NCBI GenBank assembly: GCA_022709695.1
Contig: JAKLII010000005.1
Span: 124,001 to 188,000 of the forward strand
DNA: 64,000 nt
DNA from: Bacteroidota bacterium
Lineage (GTDB): Bacteria > Bacteroidota > Bacteroidia > Bacteroidales > SKPS01
Direction of reading: 5' to 3'
Shown here: one piece after another, positions 19,812 through 44,576 of the stretch
Position numbering within the stretch: the stretch's first letter is position 1
How the letters are laid out: the number at the start of each line of letters is the position of its first letter
Translations under genes and position numbers: made by a program
The notes under the pieces: generated by a model
Told to the model about the DNA's origin: nothing
The model's input: only the letters and a program-made list of their open reading frames with translations
Databases searched by the model: none

Positions 19812-19910
19812 GTTGAGGATGTTGAGGATGTTGAGGATGTTGAGATTTTTCATTTGAGCGGAAATCTCAACAGCGAAGCGCTCAACTACCTCAACAGCGA
19901 AGCGCTCAAC
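19812..19910 (-). terminator. GTTGAG/CTCAAC inverted-repeat array, probable terminator of the T9SS gene
   Basis: On the plus strand there are four GTTGAG copies with a 9-bp period (19812, 19821, 19830, 19839) and four CTCAAC copies (19866, 19881, 19890, 19905), interleaved with two AGCGAAGCG boxes. Read on the minus strand the array follows the stop of the T9SS gene and ends in TTTTTT, so any of several stems, the best being 9 bp (GTTGAGATT/AATCTCAAC), could terminate transcription before purE. Confidence 0.6.
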
Positions 19911-21426
19911 CTTTTTTCATCGCTTTCCTCCTCCACACCCTTCCATCTTCTCCCTCCAGCTCCACCAGATACACACCCGGCTTCAGATACGGGGTTTGCA
20001 CTGTATAGGTTTGCTTTCCATGGCTTTCCGGTACAGTGGTTTCCATTGCCTTTCTCCCCTGCACGTCGTACAGCACCAACTTTCCACCCCAAAACCCATC
20101 TGGCAGCAGAATGCTTATTTCCTCTCCAAAGGGATTTGGATAGACCTCTAATCCCTGTCCCCTGTCCCCTGTCCCCTCAATACTATTGAACTGGCACCCG
20201 GGGGTATCGCATCCCAGGCTGTCGAGTTTCACAATCCATAAATCATCGAATGATCCATTATATACATCCCTTATATTTCCACATACTACAAAACCACCAT
20301 CCTGAGTGTGAGTAAAATCATAAGGATAATGGTCATATCCCCAATTTGGGTATTTTCGTATTTCACGAAACCATACACTGTCACCATCACTTGTTATTTT
20401 CATGATCCAACCGGGCATCGTGGTATTACCTGTGTCAGTATTTGCTGAAAAACCAATTGCAATCAGACTTCCATCGTCCAGTTCTTTTACTGTACTGCAG
20501 TTAAAAAGAAGTTTTGGGATTCCATATTGCTTATTCCAGATAATTGACCCGGAAGTATCTGTTTTTGCAATAGATAATCTTCCAACTGGAATTCCCTGAT
20601 AAGTCCATTCAGTTAAGTTTAACGCGATAATATAATTTCCATCTTTAGCCAGCGCCAATCTTGCATAACCATCATTATAGAGCCAGCCAACCTGTTTTAG
20701 CCAAATTTCATTCCCAAGGCTATCGGTTTTTATTACCATACCGTTTCTGGAATCCTGCAGGGTTGCGCTGTAAGTGTCACCACCCAAGAGAAACCCACCA
20801 TCGGGCAAAGTAAGGATATTGGTTCCACGGTTCATTTTGTTATTTGCCCCATAGGTCTTACGCCACAATTCATTGCCCATAGAATCGGTTTTGATCAGAA
20901 TAAACTGGGTGGCATAGGTTCCAATGCCTCTGGTTTCACCAATGGCAATGAACCCTCCATCGATAGTTTGTTTAGCTTGCGTAAATATCAGATACTCCGA
21001 ATACGTAGTATCGTAAAAGGTTTTCATCCATAAGGTATCACCGTCTAAATTATAGCGAACAAGAATTCCATTACCTTGAATAGGACCAGTTGGGTTATAG
21101 GATCCACCTAAGATGTACCCATTGTTAGTTATTGATAATGAACCGTTATCACCACAAAAGTAGACAAAACTATCGTTTTGGATTGTACTATGAATCTGTA
21201 TTGATCCAAATAGGTCAACTTTTACAAATGAAACAACATTTCTATTTAACGCTGCACTATCTCCCCCAAGCATTATTGCCACATATCCAGTTGAATCCTT
21301 TAATATACTTCGACCTGCACACCATGTATTCAGTGGGTTATATTGTTTGTTAAAATACACAGATTGGGTAAATACAGAATCGGGGAAAATAAGAGCCAGT
21401 GATAGAAATATAAATATTCTTTTCAT
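19906..21426 (-). CDS. T9SS-secreted beta-propeller-like protein (paralogue 1)
   Basis: 506 residues. Signal peptide MKRIFIFLSLALIFPDSVFTQ; then about six repeats of 45-60 residues built on the pattern DGGFIAIGETRG, ILIKTDSMGNELWRKTYG, consistent with a beta-propeller. The C-terminus (LEVYPNPFGEEISILLP to KPGVYLVELEGEDGRVW) is a T9SS type A sorting domain. Between body and tail the codons for GTGDRGQG are a tandem 7-bp repeat (20153-20176). The body is closely similar to the next gene but the tail is not. Ligand or substrate is unknown. The HGKQTYTV region suggests a typical tail fold. Confidence 0.85.
   Translation of the reverse strand: MKRIFIFLSLALIFPDSVFTQSVYFNKQYNPLNTWCAGRSILKDSTGYVAIMLGGDSAALNRNVVSFVKVDLFGSIQIHSTIQNDSFVYFCGDNGSLSITNNGYILGGSYNPTGPIQGNGILVRYNLDGDTLWMKTFYDTTYSEYLIFTQAKQTIDGGFIAIGETRGIGTYATQFILIKTDSMGNELWRKTYGANNKMNRGTNILTLPDGGFLLGGDTYSATLQDSRNGMVIKTDSLGNEIWLKQVGWLYNDGYARLALAKDGNYIIALNLTEWTYQGIPVGRLSIAKTDTSGSIIWNKQYGIPKLLFNCSTVKELDDGSLIAIGFSANTDTGNTTMPGWIMKITSDGDSVWFREIRKYPNWGYDHYPYDFTHTQDGGFVVCGNIRDVYNGSFDDLWIVKLDSLGCDTPGCQFNSIEGTGDRGQGLEVYPNPFGEEISILLPDGFWGGKLVLYDVQGRKAMETTVPESHGKQTYTVQTPYLKPGVYLVELEGEDGRVWRRKAMKKG
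20153..20176 (-). repeat. Heptanucleotide tandem repeat inside the T9SS gene
   Basis: Three CCCTGTC units plus CCC on the plus strand (GGGACAG on the coding strand), directly before the T9SS tail. Seven is not a multiple of three, so a change in copy number shifts the frame; with one unit fewer, the frame meets a TAG four codons before the tail. Confidence 0.85.
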
Positions 21427-21480: not shown

Positions 21481-23004
21481 CTACTTTTCAATCACAATTT
21501 TCTGTACAGCCAGCGTGTTGGTTCCCTGTTTGAGCAAGCACAGGTACATCCCACGGGCAAATGGGTTGGTATTGATGATGATCTGATTCTGAGGGCCTTT
21601 CACTTCGATGGTTTTTACCAAACGGCCATCAATGGTTCTGATTTCTATCAGTGCTCCTGGCAGGTTCGGCTTATCCATAGTGTATTCGATTATAAAATAC
21701 TCTTTGGAGGGATTAGGAAAAAGCTTCAATCTCACCATGCTCAATACTTTATCATCAATGCTATTATACTGACAACCAGGAGTGTCACACCCCAGGCTGT
21801 CAAGTTTTACGAGCCACATATCATCAAAGGTTCCATTATAAACATCCATAACCTTTCCGCAAACCACAAAACCGCCATCCGGAGTTTGCCCAAAATCATA
21901 CGGATTATGCTCATAACCCCAGGGATGGTATTTTTCAATTTCACGAAACCATAAACTGTCGCCATCATTGCTGATTTTCATGATCCAACCTGGCCTCTTT
22001 GTGGATCCGGTATCTGTATTTCCCGAATTCCCTATCGCCACAATATTGCCATCTTCTAATACTTTTACACTACTACAAGTATAAAGAATTTTAGGTATCC
22101 CATACTTCTTTTGCCATATAGTTGAGCCTGAAGTATCGGTTTTGACGATATTTAACCTTCCAATAGGAATACCTTGATGATTCCATTCTGCGTAATCTTG
22201 TCCGATAATATAGTTGCCATCCTTCGCAATCCCCAATCTTGCTTCGCCGTCGTTAAAGAAACCACCCACCAGTTTTCGCCAGATTTCATTCCCAAGGCTG
22301 TCGGTTTTGATCACCATTCCATTTTTTGAATCCTGAAGGGTTGCGCTGTAGGTATTACCTCCCAACAGAAACCCACCGTCGGGCAAGATGAGGATGTTGG
22401 TTCCCCGGTTCATTTTGTTATTCATTCCATAGGTTTTGCGCCACATTTCATTGCCATTCGAATCGGTTTTTATCAGAATAAACTGCGTGGCATAAGTTCC
22501 ATTGCCCCTGGTTTCACCAATGGCAACAAAACCACCGTCTGCAGTTTGTTTTGCTTGAGAAAAAATCAGATACTCTGAATAAGTGGTGTCATAAAATGTT
22601 TTTAACCAAAGGGTATCTCCGTACAAATTGTAACGAACAAGAATGCCCATTCCTTGAATAGGACCGACTGGGTTTTGAGAACCTCCAAGTATATATCCAT
22701 CGTTTGCTATTGATAATGAACCAAAATCGCCACAAAAGTAGGCTATACTGTCATTTTGGATTGTACTTTGAATTTGAATTGAACCCAATGGGTCAACTTT
22801 CAGAAATGAAACAACATTCCTGTTCACTGCCATACTATCGCCACCTATCATTATAACATTATATCCAGTTGAATCCTGTTGAATACTTAAACCTGCACCC
22901 CAGGTATTCAGTGGATTATATTGTTTGTTGAAATACACAGTTTGGGAGAACAGGGAGCCGGAGAAAATGAGAGCCAGTGAAAGAAATCTCAATATTCTTT
23001 TCAT
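21481..23004 (-). CDS. T9SS-secreted beta-propeller-like protein (paralogue 2, mosaic tail)
   Basis: 507 residues from the ATG at 23002-23004; the longer open frame runs back through the hairpin. Signal peptide MKRILRFLSLALIFSGSLFSQ and the body are close to the downstream paralogue (for example TVYFNKQYNPLNTWGAGLSI and GGFLLGGNTYSATLQDSKNG). The tail (LKLFPNPSKEYFIIEY to MYLCLLKQGTNTLAVQKIVI) instead matches the tail of the upstream 1706-residue protein almost residue for residue. The switch occurs right after a shared NSI. It is a T9SS cargo; function of the propeller is unknown. Confidence 0.85.
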   Translation of the reverse strand: MKRILRFLSLALIFSGSLFSQTVYFNKQYNPLNTWGAGLSIQQDSTGYNVIMIGGDSMAVNRNVVSFLKVDPLGSIQIQSTIQNDSIAYFCGDFGSLSIANDGYILGGSQNPVGPIQGMGILVRYNLYGDTLWLKTFYDTTYSEYLIFSQAKQTADGGFVAIGETRGNGTYATQFILIKTDSNGNEMWRKTYGMNNKMNRGTNILILPDGGFLLGGNTYSATLQDSKNGMVIKTDSLGNEIWRKLVGGFFNDGEARLGIAKDGNYIIGQDYAEWNHQGIPIGRLNIVKTDTSGSTIWQKKYGIPKILYTCSSVKVLEDGNIVAIGNSGNTDTGSTKRPGWIMKISNDGDSLWFREIEKYHPWGYEHNPYDFGQTPDGGFVVCGKVMDVYNGTFDDMWLVKLDSLGCDTPGCQYNSIDDKVLSMVRLKLFPNPSKEYFIIEYTMDKPNLPGALIEIRTIDGRLVKTIEVKGPQNQIIINTNPFARGMYLCLLKQGTNTLAVQKIVIEK

Positions 23005-23058: not shown

Positions 23059-26000
23059 CTACTTTTCAATCACAATTTTCTGTACAGCCAGCGTGTTGGT
23101 TCCCTGCTTGAGCAAACACAGGTACATTCCGCGGGCAAAAGGATGGGTATTGATGATGATCTGATTCTGAGGGTCTTTCACTTCGATGGTTTTCACCAGA
23201 CGGCCATCAATGGTTCTGATTTCTATCAACGCTTCTGGCAGATTCGGGTTGTCCAAAGCGTATTCAATCATAAAATACTCCCTGGAAGGATTGGGGAAAA
23301 GCTTCAGATAATTGATTTTTGGATCATGTGCTGGCTTTTTTGCAAGTCTTGCAGGCTGAGTTGTTGGGAAGTACACCGGACCGTGGTAGGGTAAGGTGTC
23401 AACGATTCCCAGTAAAGCCTGGGCAGCCATAGCTGTATGGTTACCTGAATTTGCAGCAATCCCCCTAAGCCATTCTACAGACTCCGGGGAGATGCTGTCC
23501 AGGTAACTGCTATCTGCCAGCAATGCCAGATGAAGTTCAATGATCGCTTTTTGCTGGTTGTATATCGCTTGTTCGATACTGTCAAGGGATATCCGAATCG
23601 GTATACTGTCCAGCCTGTCCAGGGATTCTTCCATCATTCCCCTTTTCAGACACTCTGTAACCAATAAAATCTCGCCCTGAAGGCTGGAGTCGTTGGCATA
23701 GATATCCAGTAGCTCATCCTCAATCTGTTCGTCGGTATTGTTCAGGAAGTACCGGCTGAGGTCAGCAAAGGTTTTTTGCTGCTCTGCAAGATAGTAAGCC
23801 AGTTCATTTTCAAGCACCTCTTTGGGCGATGAAACATTGATGTTATATTCAATCGCATCCAGCATATATTGGGGCAGGGGTAGGGTTCTGTCATAAAGAG
23901 CTTCCCATACTTCCTGTGAGTGTGAAGCCTGCGGATTGGCGGTAAGGATCTGGGTTACCATGGCCGGCGTAAGCACCTCTTCATTTTGCACCACACTTAC
24001 CAATACCAGTTCGGAGAGGTAAGGCGATTCCTCAAGAAGCGCCAGCATCAGGTCATAGGCATCTCCCGGTTCGCTGTCCTCGATGGTCCAGAGCATATTC
24101 TCAGTATCTCCTCCGTCGACCAGTTGCTCAATTACCTCCCTGCAGGCATTTGCTTTGTTCTTGAACGAGGTATTAGCAAGCTTCAGGCTGCTTACAGATG
24201 TACCACCCAAGTTGGACGGGCAGTTGTTTGTATTCCAGTTATTAATAACCGCATGCAGAAATACACTGCCTGAGCTCACATGAGGTTTGGGGTTGGTTGT
24301 GGTTCCTTCGGTAGGGGGATAGGGCTGATCAAAATGGTAATAATAATTTAACCATGTACCATCATTGTGTATTTCGGAGGTGGGACCACTATGCACATCC
24401 TGAAAAAAGTTATTGGACAGTTGGGTGGTTGGTGTGCCAGGCACATTGATGTAAAAACCCTGGTTTGCAGCAATTCCCTCTCCCATTGCCACGTTGGTTA
24501 TGGCCAAAGCGTTGAGGTGGTGGTCGAATTGGTTGCAACAGTATTGAAGGCCATATTCAAAATTAAAATATTGTTTGTTTTGGCCCTGAGCAATGGTCGC
24601 CACACTGGTATTGCTGAAGCGGTTGTTGTACACAAAATTGTTCAGGGGGCCTGAGTTGTCAACTACCAAACCCGCATTTTCCCAAATCATGGTTTCTTCT
24701 GCTTGCCATTCTGCCGTGAATTCATTATCTTCGATACGAAATCCCGATTTACAGCCATCCAGTTGAAGGCCTACCGGATAAATCGGGCTGTTATCAGGGA
24801 AAGAGGGGATAATGAACTCATTGGAAGTGACAGTGAAGCCATTCATCCCTACCACTTCAATGCCACGTACATTGCCATTAAAATCAGCGCTGTTCACAAA
24901 AAAACTTGCATTTGTGAGAGCATCGCCTGCATGGATTCCGCAGAAAAGGTTGCTGAAACTGCTCCGCTTATACTCGGTGCATGGCACCGAGGTAGATGTA
25001 CAGTGCGGCATTACCAGAAAAGTGGAAGCAAATGCCTGAATACCATACCCGAGATGGACTGGATTAGCAATATTGATTGAGGAGTTGTTTTTAAAGGTAC
25101 ACCCTTCTATCAGGAGGTGATGGATTCCATTGAGCCAGATACCAGCTTGTGGAATCACCCCGGGTAAGGTCAAGAGACCTGTAGTCGCAAATGTACATTG
25201 AATAAAACTACTTAGATTTGGTCTCAATACCGAAGGATCAACGGGATTAAAGTTTTTGTATGGGTACATCTTAATACCATATTCGCAATTGTAAAAGTAC
25301 GTATTTTCTGCCTGAATGATACCACCGGCACCTCTTTTATTTCCGGTTTCAATACCCACCCTGGCATTGCCAATGGTTGCCCCATTAAGCAAGGTAACTT
25401 TTCCCTGGTTGGTGGTATTTTGTGGCATTGAAAAGTTGCCCATAACCTTGATCCCCTGCCACATAAGAGAGCAGGTGGTTAAGGTTGCATTGTTCACGAT
25501 CAGTTCTGCCCCGCTCTCTACCAAAATGCTGGTATTCGGATCCATAAAAATCTGGGCATTCTCATTAATAGTGAGTTTATACCCGCTCTTAACAACGATA
25601 TCTCCTGCCGAAAAGGTGGTATTTGACCAGGTCACATCACCTGTTCCCTGATCTATGATGTAGCTTTGTTGTGCACTTTCACAGGGCAGAGCTGCTTTCC
25701 ATACACCATAACCATAAGTTGAGGCAAAGAGCTCGTTGGTTTCACGGTTTATTTTGAGGTCGGTAATATGGGTTACCGGGAAATTATTGGAAAAGCAAAT
25801 CCAGTCTGGATCATTGTCGGAACGACAAAAGATACCGCCATCGGTTGCCAGAAAAACCCGGCTGGTTCCCGGCTGGTTTACAATTGCGGTGGTAGGAAGG
25901 GGAGGTAGTATACCATTAGGCCCGCCAGTCATATCTACCCAGATTACGGGATTGGCCGATGCATCATCAGTCCTGAAAACCCGGTTTTCAAGAAAAGGCG

Positions 26001-28179
26001 GGTAGGGAGGGGTGTTGTTAAAAGACACACCACCCAAACACACCCATACTTTGTTTGGATTGTTGTAGTCAACAGCAATATCTACCACTGGATAATGACC
26101 GTTTCTTACACCGGTTGTAAAGGATCCCCCGGTAATATCTGTCCATGTGTCACCGCCATCAATTGACCGGTAAACCCCTTTTTCGCAGGTGCTGCTATAA
26201 GTTAATCCCAGCGTATTTGCGTACATGATATTGATATTGGTTGGTGCTGTTGTGATACAGGATACCATTGCCTGTCCGGAAAGCAGGGAATTTGACCAGG
26301 ATACAAGATCATTGGATATTGAGATTGCTGAATAAGTGGGATCAGCAATTCCATCTCGCGCACCCACGAAAACCTTTGGGGGATTACCGGTGATTTCAAT
26401 TGGCAGCAAAGGGGCGTCTGTAGCTCCGTATGTAATTGGAAGTTGGACATTATAATGAGTTCCACGAAAACCCAAATTGGTCCTATCTACTTTAAAAAGT
26501 CCAACTGAATGTATTAAAAATTTTGATTTGTCAGAAGGGTAAAATTTGCATTTCCACCCATCACCGACTCCCATAGGGTCAGTTTGTGGGTTGTTGTTCT
26601 GGGGATAGCTAGGCCAAATAATATCAACAGTCAATGGTGTTCCATTAAGCCATTTTTTATCAAAAAACTTGAAACTGTTGTCGATGAGCCCAACTACGAT
26701 ATTGTTTTCAAACCCTCCAGTGATATCAAAACCACTCACTTCGTTATTCGTTAATCCGGTTTTTCCATTACCATTGATGGAGCTCCAGGTAGCTCCCATG
26801 TCAGCTGTATACAGCAATCCACCGTCAGTTCCTACCATGATCATATCGCCAACTGCATCCACACACCTCGCATCCGGATGGTAATTGGCAGTTATTTCAT
26901 AGGGAAAAATACAGTAACCATGAGCATTTGCTGTGCTGATCGAGAAGCAGTCTGTGCCAATGTAGTAATAGGAATGATCAGATGTAACTTTGAAAGCGCG
27001 GTTGAATTGGTTGGTCTTTCCGGCAACAACCATGTAATTATTTGTATTCGAAGTATTCCAGGCCGGGGTTGGGAGCGAGAAGTCATAGAAAAGAATGCCA
27101 CCCTGGTTTGCCTCACGGGTGAGCACATATAATCGGTCTGAAGAAGGGAAGTCAATCTGAAGGTTTAAAACATCATTGAGGTAGGTGTATCCCGAAGTGG
27201 TGAGTATCTCTGTGAAAATATCTCCCCCATCAGTAGAAAGCCAGATCTTCGGAACGCCTCCACCGGCCGGTAGTCCTGAAATGGCAATCACATCATTGTT
27301 GTTTGGATCCACTTCCATATCGTCGAGCGTACCTTCAAAATCATCATTGTTGAACGGTGGTATGTTGGTGGTCCATGTTATACCTCCATCCACTGATTTA
27401 TAGAAGGTATTCATGGCAATGGCATATAGAATATCCGGATTGGTATTGTTGGTGCGAACCGGAGCTGCAAGCACTTTTCTGACCACGTAATTGTACTTTT
27501 GGTCAGCAAACAAAGGGAAATCCGGCAGGATATCCCAAGTTTCACCATCGTCTGATGATTTAATAATACCAATGCTATAGCCCACCTCGCTGCTGCCGGT
27601 GGCTGCATAAAAGGTGCGTTTGCCATTTTGCTCTAATATTGGGCTGGCTGAGATAAATGGGATGCCCAGGGCCGGAATCCTTTCCTGTGACAGTACATCC
27701 TGCCAGGTTTGTCCACGGTCTGTGGATTTCATGATGCCTGCTCTTCTTCCACTGCCAATCAGAATGAAATCAGGGTTGGAATGGTCGAACCAAACAGATT
27801 GGATGAATCCCATGTTGTGAAGATCTTCCGGGTACGGCCCGGCATTTTCCCATTGGGCATCATCCGTTCCGGTGCATGAAGGGTTAACCCAATAGGCACC
27901 AAGTGCCTGCTGATAGGGAGCAAAGGAGCCATTTAGCTGTGGATCGGAGTATTGCACTCTGGTTTGCCAGTAGGATGCCCACCTTCCAAACTTTTTGATT
28001 TCGAGCGTTTTTACCGAATCAGGAAGCTGGACAGAATCGATCCAGGCTTCGAAGTCGGCTACAATCTGATAGAAATTGGCTGAGGTGTCAAGCGCCGCCT
28101 GCCGGTAATTGGGTTGTGCCACTGCACCGGAAAACCCGGCAATGACCATTATCAGTATAAACAAATATTTGAATTTCAT
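23059..28179 (-). CDS. Large T9SS cargo with Asp-box propeller and beta-helix
   Basis: 1706 residues from MKFKYLFILIMVIAGFSGAVA (ATG complement 28177-28179); a longer open frame adds 37 residues that spoil the signal peptide. Residues about 100-830 carry BNR/Asp-box repeats (KSTDRGQTW, KSSDDGETW, KSVDGGITW, YTADMGATW, RSIDGGDTW) as in sialidase- and sortilin-like propellers. Residues about 845-1300 look like a right-handed beta-helix (TINENAQIFMDPNTSILVESG). A helical region follows (residues about 1340-1600), then the T9SS type A tail LKLFPNPSREYF to VQKIVI. Asp-box repeats mark structure rather than activity, so enzymatic function is not claimed. Confidence 0.85.
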   Translation of the reverse strand: MKFKYLFILIMVIAGFSGAVAQPNYRQAALDTSANFYQIVADFEAWIDSVQLPDSVKTLEIKKFGRWASYWQTRVQYSDPQLNGSFAPYQQALGAYWVNPSCTGTDDAQWENAGPYPEDLHNMGFIQSVWFDHSNPDFILIGSGRRAGIMKSTDRGQTWQDVLSQERIPALGIPFISASPILEQNGKRTFYAATGSSEVGYSIGIIKSSDDGETWDILPDFPLFADQKYNYVVRKVLAAPVRTNNTNPDILYAIAMNTFYKSVDGGITWTTNIPPFNNDDFEGTLDDMEVDPNNNDVIAISGLPAGGGVPKIWLSTDGGDIFTEILTTSGYTYLNDVLNLQIDFPSSDRLYVLTREANQGGILFYDFSLPTPAWNTSNTNNYMVVAGKTNQFNRAFKVTSDHSYYYIGTDCFSISTANAHGYCIFPYEITANYHPDARCVDAVGDMIMVGTDGGLLYTADMGATWSSINGNGKTGLTNNEVSGFDITGGFENNIVVGLIDNSFKFFDKKWLNGTPLTVDIIWPSYPQNNNPQTDPMGVGDGWKCKFYPSDKSKFLIHSVGLFKVDRTNLGFRGTHYNVQLPITYGATDAPLLPIEITGNPPKVFVGARDGIADPTYSAISISNDLVSWSNSLLSGQAMVSCITTAPTNINIMYANTLGLTYSSTCEKGVYRSIDGGDTWTDITGGSFTTGVRNGHYPVVDIAVDYNNPNKVWVCLGGVSFNNTPPYPPFLENRVFRTDDASANPVIWVDMTGGPNGILPPLPTTAIVNQPGTSRVFLATDGGIFCRSDNDPDWICFSNNFPVTHITDLKINRETNELFASTYGYGVWKAALPCESAQQSYIIDQGTGDVTWSNTTFSAGDIVVKSGYKLTINENAQIFMDPNTSILVESGAELIVNNATLTTCSLMWQGIKVMGNFSMPQNTTNQGKVTLLNGATIGNARVGIETGNKRGAGGIIQAENTYFYNCEYGIKMYPYKNFNPVDPSVLRPNLSSFIQCTFATTGLLTLPGVIPQAGIWLNGIHHLLIEGCTFKNNSSINIANPVHLGYGIQAFASTFLVMPHCTSTSVPCTEYKRSSFSNLFCGIHAGDALTNASFFVNSADFNGNVRGIEVVGMNGFTVTSNEFIIPSFPDNSPIYPVGLQLDGCKSGFRIEDNEFTAEWQAEETMIWENAGLVVDNSGPLNNFVYNNRFSNTSVATIAQGQNKQYFNFEYGLQYCCNQFDHHLNALAITNVAMGEGIAANQGFYINVPGTPTTQLSNNFFQDVHSGPTSEIHNDGTWLNYYYHFDQPYPPTEGTTTNPKPHVSSGSVFLHAVINNWNTNNCPSNLGGTSVSSLKLANTSFKNKANACREVIEQLVDGGDTENMLWTIEDSEPGDAYDLMLALLEESPYLSELVLVSVVQNEEVLTPAMVTQILTANPQASHSQEVWEALYDRTLPLPQYMLDAIEYNINVSSPKEVLENELAYYLAEQQKTFADLSRYFLNNTDEQIEDELLDIYANDSSLQGEILLVTECLKRGMMEESLDRLDSIPIRISLDSIEQAIYNQQKAIIELHLALLADSSYLDSISPESVEWLRGIAANSGNHTAMAAQALLGIVDTLPYHGPVYFPTTQPARLAKKPAHDPKINYLKLFPNPSREYFMIEYALDNPNLPEALIEIRTIDGRLVKTIEVKDPQNQIIINTHPFARGMYLCLLKQGTNTLAVQKIVIEK

Positions 28180-28243
28180 ATAAATAGCATTAATTCGTGT
28201 GTTAATTAAGAAAGCCAATGATCTGGTGTTTGATTCTGAATTT

Positions 28244-28272
28244 GCCAGAGGTATGCAATTGCAACCTCTGGC
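28244..28272. repeat. 29-bp dyad symmetry upstream of the large T9SS gene
   Basis: GCCAGAGGT and ACCTCTGGC flank an A plus the self-complementary TGCAATTGCA. It lies 65 bp upstream of the T9SS gene start on its template side. There is no T run in either direction, so it is more likely an operator-like site or RNA structure than a terminator. Confidence 0.6.
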
Positions 28273-28688
28273 AGCGATGTTCCCAGTCATTCTACCCCAG
28301 CCAAAAAATGGAAATCGGATAAAGGCATTGAACCCAATTCAGCCTTAAAGCCTGTCGGATTACAGGGATGTCCTCAAATTTAATCTTAACCTCTACTCTC
28401 TTTACAGCAGAAATAGATCCGTAGAAATACATTAAATATGTATTGAAAAGTATCTGAAATTAAAGCATCATTTTCAATCTTGGGGATGAGTTTCAACCAG
28501 CAAATGATCAGGAATGATTCCTGTGATCTCTTTACATTAAAATCGTGTATGCAATTGAGAGGATAAAGATAATACAAAATTAACCATCTACGACATAAAA
28601 GTGAAAAAAATATTGAAATTCATATCACATTCATGAATACACGAATTAATGATACAGGTATACCCTCATTCGTGAATTTGTGGCTATT

Positions 28689-28799: not shown

Positions 28800-28917
28800 T
28801 CACAACACAAACAACAAAAAACAAACAACAAAAAACAAACAACGAAAAACAAACAACGAAAAACAAACAACGAACAACTAACAACAAACGACGAACAACG
28901 AACAACGAACAAATCAC
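28800..28917 (+). repeat. AACAA/AACGA tract before hpt
   Basis: Almost 120 bp made of AACAAAC, AACAAAA and AACGAAC words with no G runs. It ends at the hpt -7 element. Similar tracts precede the third adenylate kinase, the epimerase and the LOG gene. Confidence 0.8.
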
Positions 28918-29498: not shown

Positions 29499-30668
29499 AT
29501 GATGAATATCGCCCTCTTCGGACCTCCCGGCGCCGGGAAAGGAACCCAGTCGAAGATGCTCCTCGAAAAGTACAACCTTACCTACATTGCCACAGGAGAT
29601 ATGCTCCGCACCGAGATCGCCGAAGGGAGCGAGCTGGGGCTGCTGGCACGGTCGGTCATCGACCGGGGGCAACTGGTGTCGGATGAAATCATCGTGCAGA
29701 TGATCGAGAAAAAGATCAGCACCAACCCCGACACCAAGGGTTTTCTGTTCGACGGATTCCCGCGTACCGTGGTGCAGGCCTATATCCTCGAAGGGCTTTT
29801 GCTGAAGATGAACACGAGCCTCAACTCGGTGCTCAGTCTCGAAGTGCCCGAGGAGGAACTGGTGCGCAGGCTGGTGGAGCGCGGAAAAACCTCCGGGAGA
29901 TCGGATGATACCCCGGAAGTGATTCAGCTCAGGCTCAGGGAGTACTACGACAAAACCGAACCTGTGGCCGGCTACTACCGTGATCTGGGAATTTATACGC
30001 CGATCAGGGGTATCGGGGCGATTGAGGAGATTGAACACCGGCTTGATGAAGCCATCGTCTCGTCCCTGAAAAACACCTGGCTCAACGTAGTACTGGCCGG
30101 TCCTCCTGGGGCAGGGAAAGGTACCCAGTCTGCCATGCTGGCCGAAAAATTCAACCTGGTGCATATCGCCACCGGTGACGTGCTGCGTAAGGCCCTGGCC
30201 GAAGGGAATGAGCTTGGGTTGCAGGCCAAACCCTATATGGAACGGGGCGAAATGGTCCCGGATGAGATCGTCATCCGCCTGATAGAGAAACAGATGATGC
30301 ACCACCAGCATGCCCGTGGCTTCCTGTTCGACGGTTTCCCCATCAATATTGTGCAGGCCTATATCCTCGACGGCATGCTCAAGAAAATGGATTCCTCCCT
30401 GGCCTGTATGATCAACCTGCAGGTACCTACCCTCGAAAGCATCAACCGGCTGCTGCAACGGGGAAAAACCAGCGCTGCCACCTCCTGCGATGCCAATGCC
30501 GAAATCATCCTCAAAAGACTGCTGGAGTACGAAACACAGATTAAAAAGGTCGACAGCTACTATATCTCCCAGAAAAAATTCATCCCTATCGAAGGCATCG
30601 GCCCTATTGAAGAAATCAACGACAGGCTCAGCCGACAGATTGAAGAGGCGTTCAAGGGAATACGATAG
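29499..30668 (+). CDS. Fused double adenylate kinase, second half degenerate
   Basis: 389 residues made of two complete adenylate kinase domains of about 190 residues each, roughly twice the normal length. Domain 1 (1-188) keeps the P-loop GPPGAGKGT (8-16), TGDMLR (32-37), DGFPRT with Arg89, the short-lid SGRSDD with Arg134, and Arg145. Domain 2 (193-389) keeps its P-loop (201-209), TGDVLR and Arg340, but Arg89 is replaced by Ile282 (DGFPIN) and SGRSDD is replaced by SAATSCD. These arginines contact AMP and phosphates in known structures, so domain 2 is probably inactive or altered. The normal role is ATP + AMP = 2 ADP. The start could be either of two adjacent ATGs. Confidence 0.9.
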   Translation: MMNIALFGPPGAGKGTQSKMLLEKYNLTYIATGDMLRTEIAEGSELGLLARSVIDRGQLVSDEIIVQMIEKKISTNPDTKGFLFDGFPRTVVQAYILEGLLLKMNTSLNSVLSLEVPEEELVRRLVERGKTSGRSDDTPEVIQLRLREYYDKTEPVAGYYRDLGIYTPIRGIGAIEEIEHRLDEAIVSSLKNTWLNVVLAGPPGAGKGTQSAMLAEKFNLVHIATGDVLRKALAEGNELGLQAKPYMERGEMVPDEIVIRLIEKQMMHHQHARGFLFDGFPINIVQAYILDGMLKKMDSSLACMINLQVPTLESINRLLQRGKTSAATSCDANAEIILKRLLEYETQIKKVDSYYISQKKFIPIEGIGPIEEINDRLSRQIEEAFKGIR

Positions 30669-30906
30669 TTTGGAGTTAGAAGTTAGGAGTTAGAATTTAG
30701 GAATCAGGGGTTTGGTTTAACTCCGATTGCGTCGGGAGATTTTTTCTGAGTTTATTATTTTAGTAGCCGTTCGGGATTCAACGGGTGGTTTTCATTTTAT
30801 TATTTTATTGATATTCAGGGTTTTTCATTACCACGGAGGCACTGAGATCACTTAGAAACACTGAGGAGGTTCCACGATGGCTTTTAAATCATATAAGATC
30901 ATAAAA

Positions 30907-30956: not shown

Positions 30957-30999
30957 TTCCTCTGCTCTAACAACAAACAATAAACAACGAACAAATCAC

Positions 31000-39225: not shown

Positions 39226-39230
39226 ATTTA

Positions 39231-39263
39231 GTTAGAAGTTAGGAGTTAGGAGTTAGAAGTTAG
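39231..39263 (+). repeat. GTTAG tract after the methyltransferase stop
   Basis: Six GTTAG words spaced by AA, AG or GA (for example GTTAGGAGTTAGGAGTTAG). A similar tract lies at 30671-30705, also directly after a TAG stop. Confidence 0.7.
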
Positions 39264-39296
39264 TAATTGTAATTTAGAAATTTGAAACTTGAGATT

Positions 39297-40756: not shown

Positions 40757-40793
40757 AAACAACAAACAACAAACAACGAACATTAAACAACAA
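40757..40793 (+). repeat. AACAA/AACGA tract before the epimerase gene
   Basis: Words AACAACAAACAAC and AACGAACATT end 3 bp before the ATG at 40797. No TAnnTTTG element is visible between the tract and the gene, unlike at hpt. Confidence 0.65.
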
Positions 40794-44230: not shown

Positions 44231-44576
44231 GTTGTTTATACGTTTGGTTGTTGAGATGAAATACTGCTGACCACTGAACAACAAACAACGAACAACGAAC
44301 AACGAACAACAAACAACAAACAACGAACAACAAACAACAAACACGTAGCGAAGCGAAGTCCCGAGAGCGAAGCGATTCGGGAACAAACAACAAACACGTA
44401 GCGAAGCGAAGTCCCGAGAGCGAAGCGATTCGGGAACAAACAACGAACACGTAGCGAAGCGAAGACCCGAGAGCGAAGCGATTCGGGAACAAACAACAAA
44501 CACGTAGCGAAGCGAAGTCCCGAGAGCGAAGCGATTCGGGAACAAACAACAAACAACGAACAACAAACAAAAAAAT
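44231..44576. other. Intergenic region of repeats between uvrA and the LOG gene
   Basis: 346 bp with no credible gene. AACAA/AACGA words fill 44277-44340 and 44540-44572; between them lie four 53-bp direct repeats. Three minus-strand open frames over this region are translations of the repeats and were discarded. No TAnnTTTG element was found ahead of the LOG gene. Confidence 0.8.
44342..44553 (+). repeat. Four-copy 53-bp tandem repeat
   Basis: Copies begin at 44342, 44395, 44448 and 44501, exactly 53 bp apart. Each starts CACGTAGCGAAGCGAAG, holds TCCCGA and TCGGGA as an inverted pair around a second AGCGAAGCGA, and ends with an AACAAACAAC word. Copies differ by single bases only: AAC to AAC/GAA at the end of copy 2 and TCCCGA to ACCCGA in copy 3. 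Confidence 0.92.

Follow-up and report, generated by a model that had tools for sequence, protein, structure and literature searches.

A short and perfect heptamer array within the coding sequence of a T9SS cargo gene is, as we conclude with moderate confidence, a dispersed repeat that has been captured at a permissive linker, where it marks and probably helps the exchange of the sorting tail. Within the window (the whole stretch of DNA analysed, 64,000 nucleotides) the gene is on the minus strand, and its tract is real, in frame and beyond chance. Bacteroidota possess scores of T9SS cargo proteins with a common C-terminal sorting tail, and we found no explanation in the open-access literature for the spread of such tails between unrelated proteins; if arrays of this kind are exchange seams, they would constitute a mechanism at the level of DNA, testable by comparative genomics and a simple recombination assay. 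The case furthermore serves as a warning that not each out-of-frame repeat in a surface gene should be taken for a phase switch. The features concerned are the following.

19906-21426, minus strand: T9SS cargo gene (the target), 506 aa, with a signal-like N-terminus, an SBBP-type beta-propeller body, a linker and a sorting tail
19924-20145, minus strand: Por_Secre_tail sorting tail (PF18962/TIGR04183) of the target, residues 428-500, from profile matches
20143-20190, minus strand: linker of the target, 16 residues from PGCQ to YPNP, mostly with pLDDT below 50
20153-20177, minus strand: perfect period-7 tract, (GGGGACA)x3 plus GGG and one further matching base, encoding GTGDRGQ; a canonical four-tract G-quadruplex motif (TRF and sequence)
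20148-20154, minus strand: GGATTAG, a degenerate fourth unit that keeps the array's register; its counterpart in the alignment with paralogue C16 is AAATTAG
21481-23004, minus strand: tandem paralogue, body 78% identical to that of the target, array-free linker, different tail
23059-28290, minus strand: neighbouring T9SS cargo gene with an unrelated body, sharing a 90% identical tail with 21481-23004; this is a second tail transfer, with no array involved

That the target is a T9SS-type cargo, as proposed by the initial annotation, is borne out by its sorting tail, which scores above the curated thresholds of both PF18962 (29.2 bits, cut-off 27) and TIGR04183 (34.7 bits, cut-off 23), and by SprA in the same genome (2587.8 bits), which indicates that the T9SS machinery is present. 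In these respects the target resembles T9SS type A cargo, but it differs in that its linker is made of a tandem array and its tail type is swapped relative to the body. The N-terminus is signal-peptide-like by eye, and a profile search gave weak and partial matches of the body to the SBBP beta-propeller lipoprotein model. An AlphaFold (AF2) model from a two-sequence input is likewise propeller-like with a mean pLDDT of 61, and the Foldseek matches of this model are propeller proteins. In the same two-sequence model residues 407-426, between the propeller strands and the tail, are mostly of pLDDT below 50, and we regard the linker as a predicted disordered or flexible and putatively permissive site. 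The tract precedes the Por_Secre_tail residues, so that the repeat does sit between propeller body and sorting domain as had been described.

TRF delimits the tract to 20153-20177 (25 bp, period 7, 3.6 copies, 100% matches). The coding strand reads GA-(GGGGACA)x3-GGG-ATTAG, or GAG-(GGGACAG)x3-GGATTAG in the GGGACAG phase; the tract itself was thus correctly recognised as three GGGACAG units plus GGG, but the phase assigned to it was one base off. Its period score is 18, and none of 27,400 shuffled linkers reached a score of at least 14. The unit is not a multiple of three and lies within a reading frame, and when the number of units is edited in a script the frame is kept with 0, 3 and 6 units, and an early stop after GTGDRD results with 2 and 5 units. 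The claim that the loss of one unit places a stop just ahead of the tail is therefore sound, the product being 423 aa long. With 1, 4 and 7 units the early stop is avoided and proteins of 508-522 aa are predicted in which the last ~90 residues are frame-shifted; the products of 4 units (515 aa) and 1 unit (508 aa), both with a scrambled tail, had gone unmentioned. The shifted frames thus lose the sorting tail.

The same heptamer is dispersed in the genome of the target (a draft of 3.39 Mb in 21 contigs, analysed as stretches around tails and arrays), where we found 10 GGGACAG arrays, each of 2-4 units. Only the target is clearly within a gene; one further array (L078) extends over the end of an ORF of 194 aa, itself of doubtful status. 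The remaining ones are outside ORFs, mostly 0-22 nt past a stop and with the G-rich strand as the coding strand. The family is accordingly dispersed and mostly intergenic. Units that come after the perfect copies are degenerate yet in register, with AG at register 6 in 24/40 units and in 1-10 at other registers, and the target array, with GGGACAG x3 followed by GGATTAG, is built to the same plan as its sisters. A 5' flank, AGTATTGAG, is common to the target and the C5 array, but this is probably due to chance, since it is mostly inherited body sequence. Just past the end of the target gene (window 19812-19905) GTTGAGCGCTTCGCT is repeated and is followed by an array of the 9-bp unit GTTGAGGAT.

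From PGCQ/H to Y/FPNP the linker measures 16 residues in the target, the tandem paralogue, the paralogue C16:163379-164875 (C16), the gene C18 and the congener gene G001b, and 17 residues in G001a. Lengthening of the linker by insertion of an array can be ruled out, as 16 residues are found with or without an array and G001a is the sole exception, and the constant length implies that the array took the place of linker sequence rather than being added to it. Among the 137 tails of the genome only the target and C16 have a period-7 linker score of at least 12 (C18 scores 9), and no period-7 tract of such a score occurs in seven other sampling windows of the same T9SS genes. The C16 linker consists of GAATTAA, AAATTAG, AAATGAG, AAATTAG and AAATG in the same register as the target array, and distinct unit types, GGGACAG in the target and the AAATTAG type in C16, are thus found at one linker spot. 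The array stretch of C16 is nearly identical to that of C18, although their bodies and their tails are each only ~28% identical; both arrays are degenerate.

The tail of the target is closest to that of C16 (69% over 77 aa), and the two bodies are 27% identical. In the body tree the target groups with 21481-23004 (100/100), C16 with G001a (100/100) and C18 with G001b (100/99), and in the tail tree the target groups with C16 (97/96), with G001a next (86/64), and C18 again with G001b (85/97). From the disagreement between the trees we can conclude that the target bears a C16-type tail on a different body. If tail-exchange pairs are defined by a tail similarity of at least 0.5 over the full-length tail, clearly dissimilar bodies and enough sequence to judge, two pairs are found among the 137 tails, namely target and C16, with arrays in both, and the neighbours at 21481 and 23059, with no arrays; the former is the only non-neighbouring one among the judgeable pairs. 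The shared 90% tail of the neighbours, whose bodies are unrelated, occupies window 21490-21723 and 23068-23301. The tandem paralogue does lack a repeat at the same place, as stated in the initial annotation, but is not a simple repeat-free control, since its tail is unrelated to that of the target and 90% identical to that of 23059-28290.

A second genome (G047), from another family of the same order and available as a draft of 240 contigs, has a dispersed repeat of its own, the octamer GGAC(G/T)GTA, with 109 matches to a two-unit pattern and 0 for the reversed control, mostly at 3' ends of co-oriented genes and often across the stop codon. Its T9SS linkers furthermore hold heptamers (AGTTCAA, GTTCCGG) and the octamer GGCATGG(A/G). 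Among the first 87 tails 11 linkers score at least 10, whereas three body stretches of 75 bp gave 0 or 1 each, and 5 arrays of such a score are also found in the first 75 bp of the tail. With further tails added 17/102 linkers have arrays, the period being 7 in nine and 8 in eight, but 11/87 is the fairer rate, since some of the further loci were selected because their frames were short and one because it had an array. T9SS linkers contain 5 of the 31 distinct RGTTCMR arrays, where 0.035 are expected under uniform placement, an excess with P ~3e-10 that presumes such placement even though arrays are excluded from most coding sequence. Among G047 pairs with similar tails and unrelated bodies 10/11 have arrays in both linkers (permutation p <5e-5), the 10 pairs representing about two tail groups and not ten events, and for the pair G047a/G047b the DNA identity starts at the array. 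The L317 pair has exchanged tails without arrays. The close paralogues L324 and L328 (body 0.89, tail 0.81) differ in the heptamer family that their linker contains, which means that the type of array turns over faster than the body or the tail domain. Some G047 tails (L346, L286, L316, L323) contain 7- or 8-bp arrays within their first 75 bp, with units such as GTCGGCG, AGTTCAA and GGCATGG.

The restriction of these arrays is apparent from wider searches. No linker arrays were found at 31 tails of the genomes G023 and G041 nor at 21 tails of other relatives, and linker arrays are hence lineage-restricted. A target orthologue was found neither in 60 relatives (best 34% identity) nor among the GTDB contigs scanned with a peptide pattern. 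No exact GGGACAG array beside a T9SS tail occurs in 294 further genomes of the class, and 98 other relatives gave no three perfect GGGACAG units. An AT-rich heptamer was also considered in T9SS linkers across the whole order, but 8/9 matches were outside T9SS genes and the notion that every lineage does this was dropped.

In the mechanism that we favour, the target array is the coding-region member of a dispersed heptamer family, GGGACAG with in-register variants ending in AG, that otherwise stays extragenic and mostly right behind stop codons. As a three-unit array (21 bp) in a flexible linker of 16 residues it preserves both frame and length. T9SS linkers repeatedly harbour 7/8-bp arrays, both here and in the one other genome of the order that was examined, and there the arrays fall at junctions where unrelated cargo bodies have exchanged tails. 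Most likely, the array is a neutral spacer at the protein level and a seam for recombination at the DNA level. The sequence and position of the array, the dispersal of the family, the enrichment in linkers and the mismatch of body and tail at arrays are direct observations; we infer that the repeats assist the exchange and were not just carried along with the tail or acquired later. Hitch-hiking with the tail or arrival of the array after the exchange are possible alternatives. Counting against a seam are the array-free exchanges in the neighbours 21481/23059 and in the L317 pair, the lineage restriction of linker arrays, and the different units of the target and C16, which show that the array was not simply copied along with the tail. 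A broader version, in which dispersed 7/8-bp arrays in some Bacteroidota make up a modular secretion exchange system, providing portable homology for tail swaps and by occasional slippage flipping cargo between surface and periplasm, can be put forward only tentatively.

The alternative nearest to hand is that the repeat is inert, having landed at random and survived only where it is harmless, as in a disordered linker, with no role in tail exchange. The predicted disorder of the linker, its nearly constant length and the location of arrays either outside genes or in linkers are all in agreement with this, but it leaves unpredicted that arrays are so frequent at tails common to unrelated bodies and that the breakpoint between body and tail falls at the array, and we find it rather doubtful. 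A phase-variable switch, in which slippage by one unit removes or scrambles the sorting tail and so turns surface export reversibly off, is less probable still. It is suggested by the unit that is not a multiple of three, with a stop at 2 units and a scrambled tail at 4, by the perfection of the tract and its G-quadruplex motif, and by the T9SS gene L399 of G047 (G047:C38:2200-3450; tail C38:3087-3290), whose frame breaks precisely at a CACTCAA array of three units, such that a long open body frame and a tail in another frame would be aligned by a shift equal to one unit; judged from its sequence L399 may be an OFF allele or else a decayed gene or pseudogene. Like SSR contingency loci, such as the tetranucleotide genes of Haemophilus, the target probably encodes a surface protein and has an out-of-frame unit within its ORF, but it differs in its few units and its C-terminal site at a domain junction, and it is known here from one assembled sequence. 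Three units would however be short for hypermutation. We found no measured length threshold for the hypermutability of heptamers in the literature, the target having 3.6 units. The sister GGGACAG arrays are likewise of only 2-4 units, and a switch is for these reasons judged unlikely for the target. The comparison with repeats in other T9SS genes that the initial annotation had called for gave further linker arrays in the same genome, but those of C16 and C18 are degenerate, and in 16/17 of the G047 linker arrays the reading frame runs through from body to tail. This points to selection for the ON frame and neither proves nor excludes rare switching. Phase variation was also deemed unlikely in a survey of similar G-rich heptamers (PMC4692102).

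That the array is a G-quadruplex element with an effect on transcription or translation close to where the gene ends is very unlikely. The minus strand of the window has indeed no other four-tract G motif, the RNA fold of the target is predicted at -12.7 kcal/mol with a quadruplex and -6.4 without, and related heptamers form quadruplexes in vitro (PMC4692102), but most sister arrays have three G tracts only, and the notion is impossible for AT-rich linker arrays such as AAATTAG in C16 and AGTTCAA in G047. The two draft assemblies are fragmented (21 and 240 contigs), and short repeats might have misjoined bodies and tails or the units might have been miscounted; this is however highly improbable, since the tracts of 25-46 bp are below typical read length, the reading frames are intact, and the swapped tails differ by 20-40% in protein and are hence not collapsed copies.

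G-rich heptameric SSRs have been described in Xanthomonas (GGGAATC) and Nostoc/Anabaena (GGGGA(C/T)T), where they are mostly intergenic and, on the coding strand, lie close to stop codons or run across them; in vitro they fold into quadruplexes (PMC4692102). The GGGACAG family is alike in its G-rich unit of 7 bp, its dispersal and its mostly intergenic location near stop codons, and the target, whose tandem unit of 7 bp includes 3-4 consecutive G, has four G tracts as well. It differs by belonging to another phylum, by its unit (GGGGACA), by having mostly three tracts, and by the location of the target within a T9SS gene at a domain junction; among the 10 arrays four tracts are found in the target and one other only, the rest having fewer, and four or more are thus not typical. 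The TAACTGA heptamers of Beggiatoaceae, Cyanobacteria and some Bacteroidetes are likewise short, dispersed and mostly extragenic arrays, but they are found upstream of start codons, whereas the GGGACAG family follows stop codons and sits in a T9SS linker (PMC4679880).

The window has other arrays as well. AGTTAGG/AGTTAGA heptamers at window 30667-30702 and 39230-39279 start at most 4 nt from the stop of the upstream plus-strand gene, a layout like that of the GGGACAG arrays. A second class of the AACAACA/AAACAAC type occurs at window 40757-40793, 30969-30994, 44277-44343 and 28807-28912, the first stopping 3 nt short of the next ORF start and the second 38 nt short of one, which recalls the TAACTGA repeats (PMC4679880). 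At window 44329-44555 a unit of 53 bp is repeated 4.3 times at 97% identity, with the GC-rich segment CCCGAGAGCGAAGCGATTCGGG between AACAAAC heptamers.
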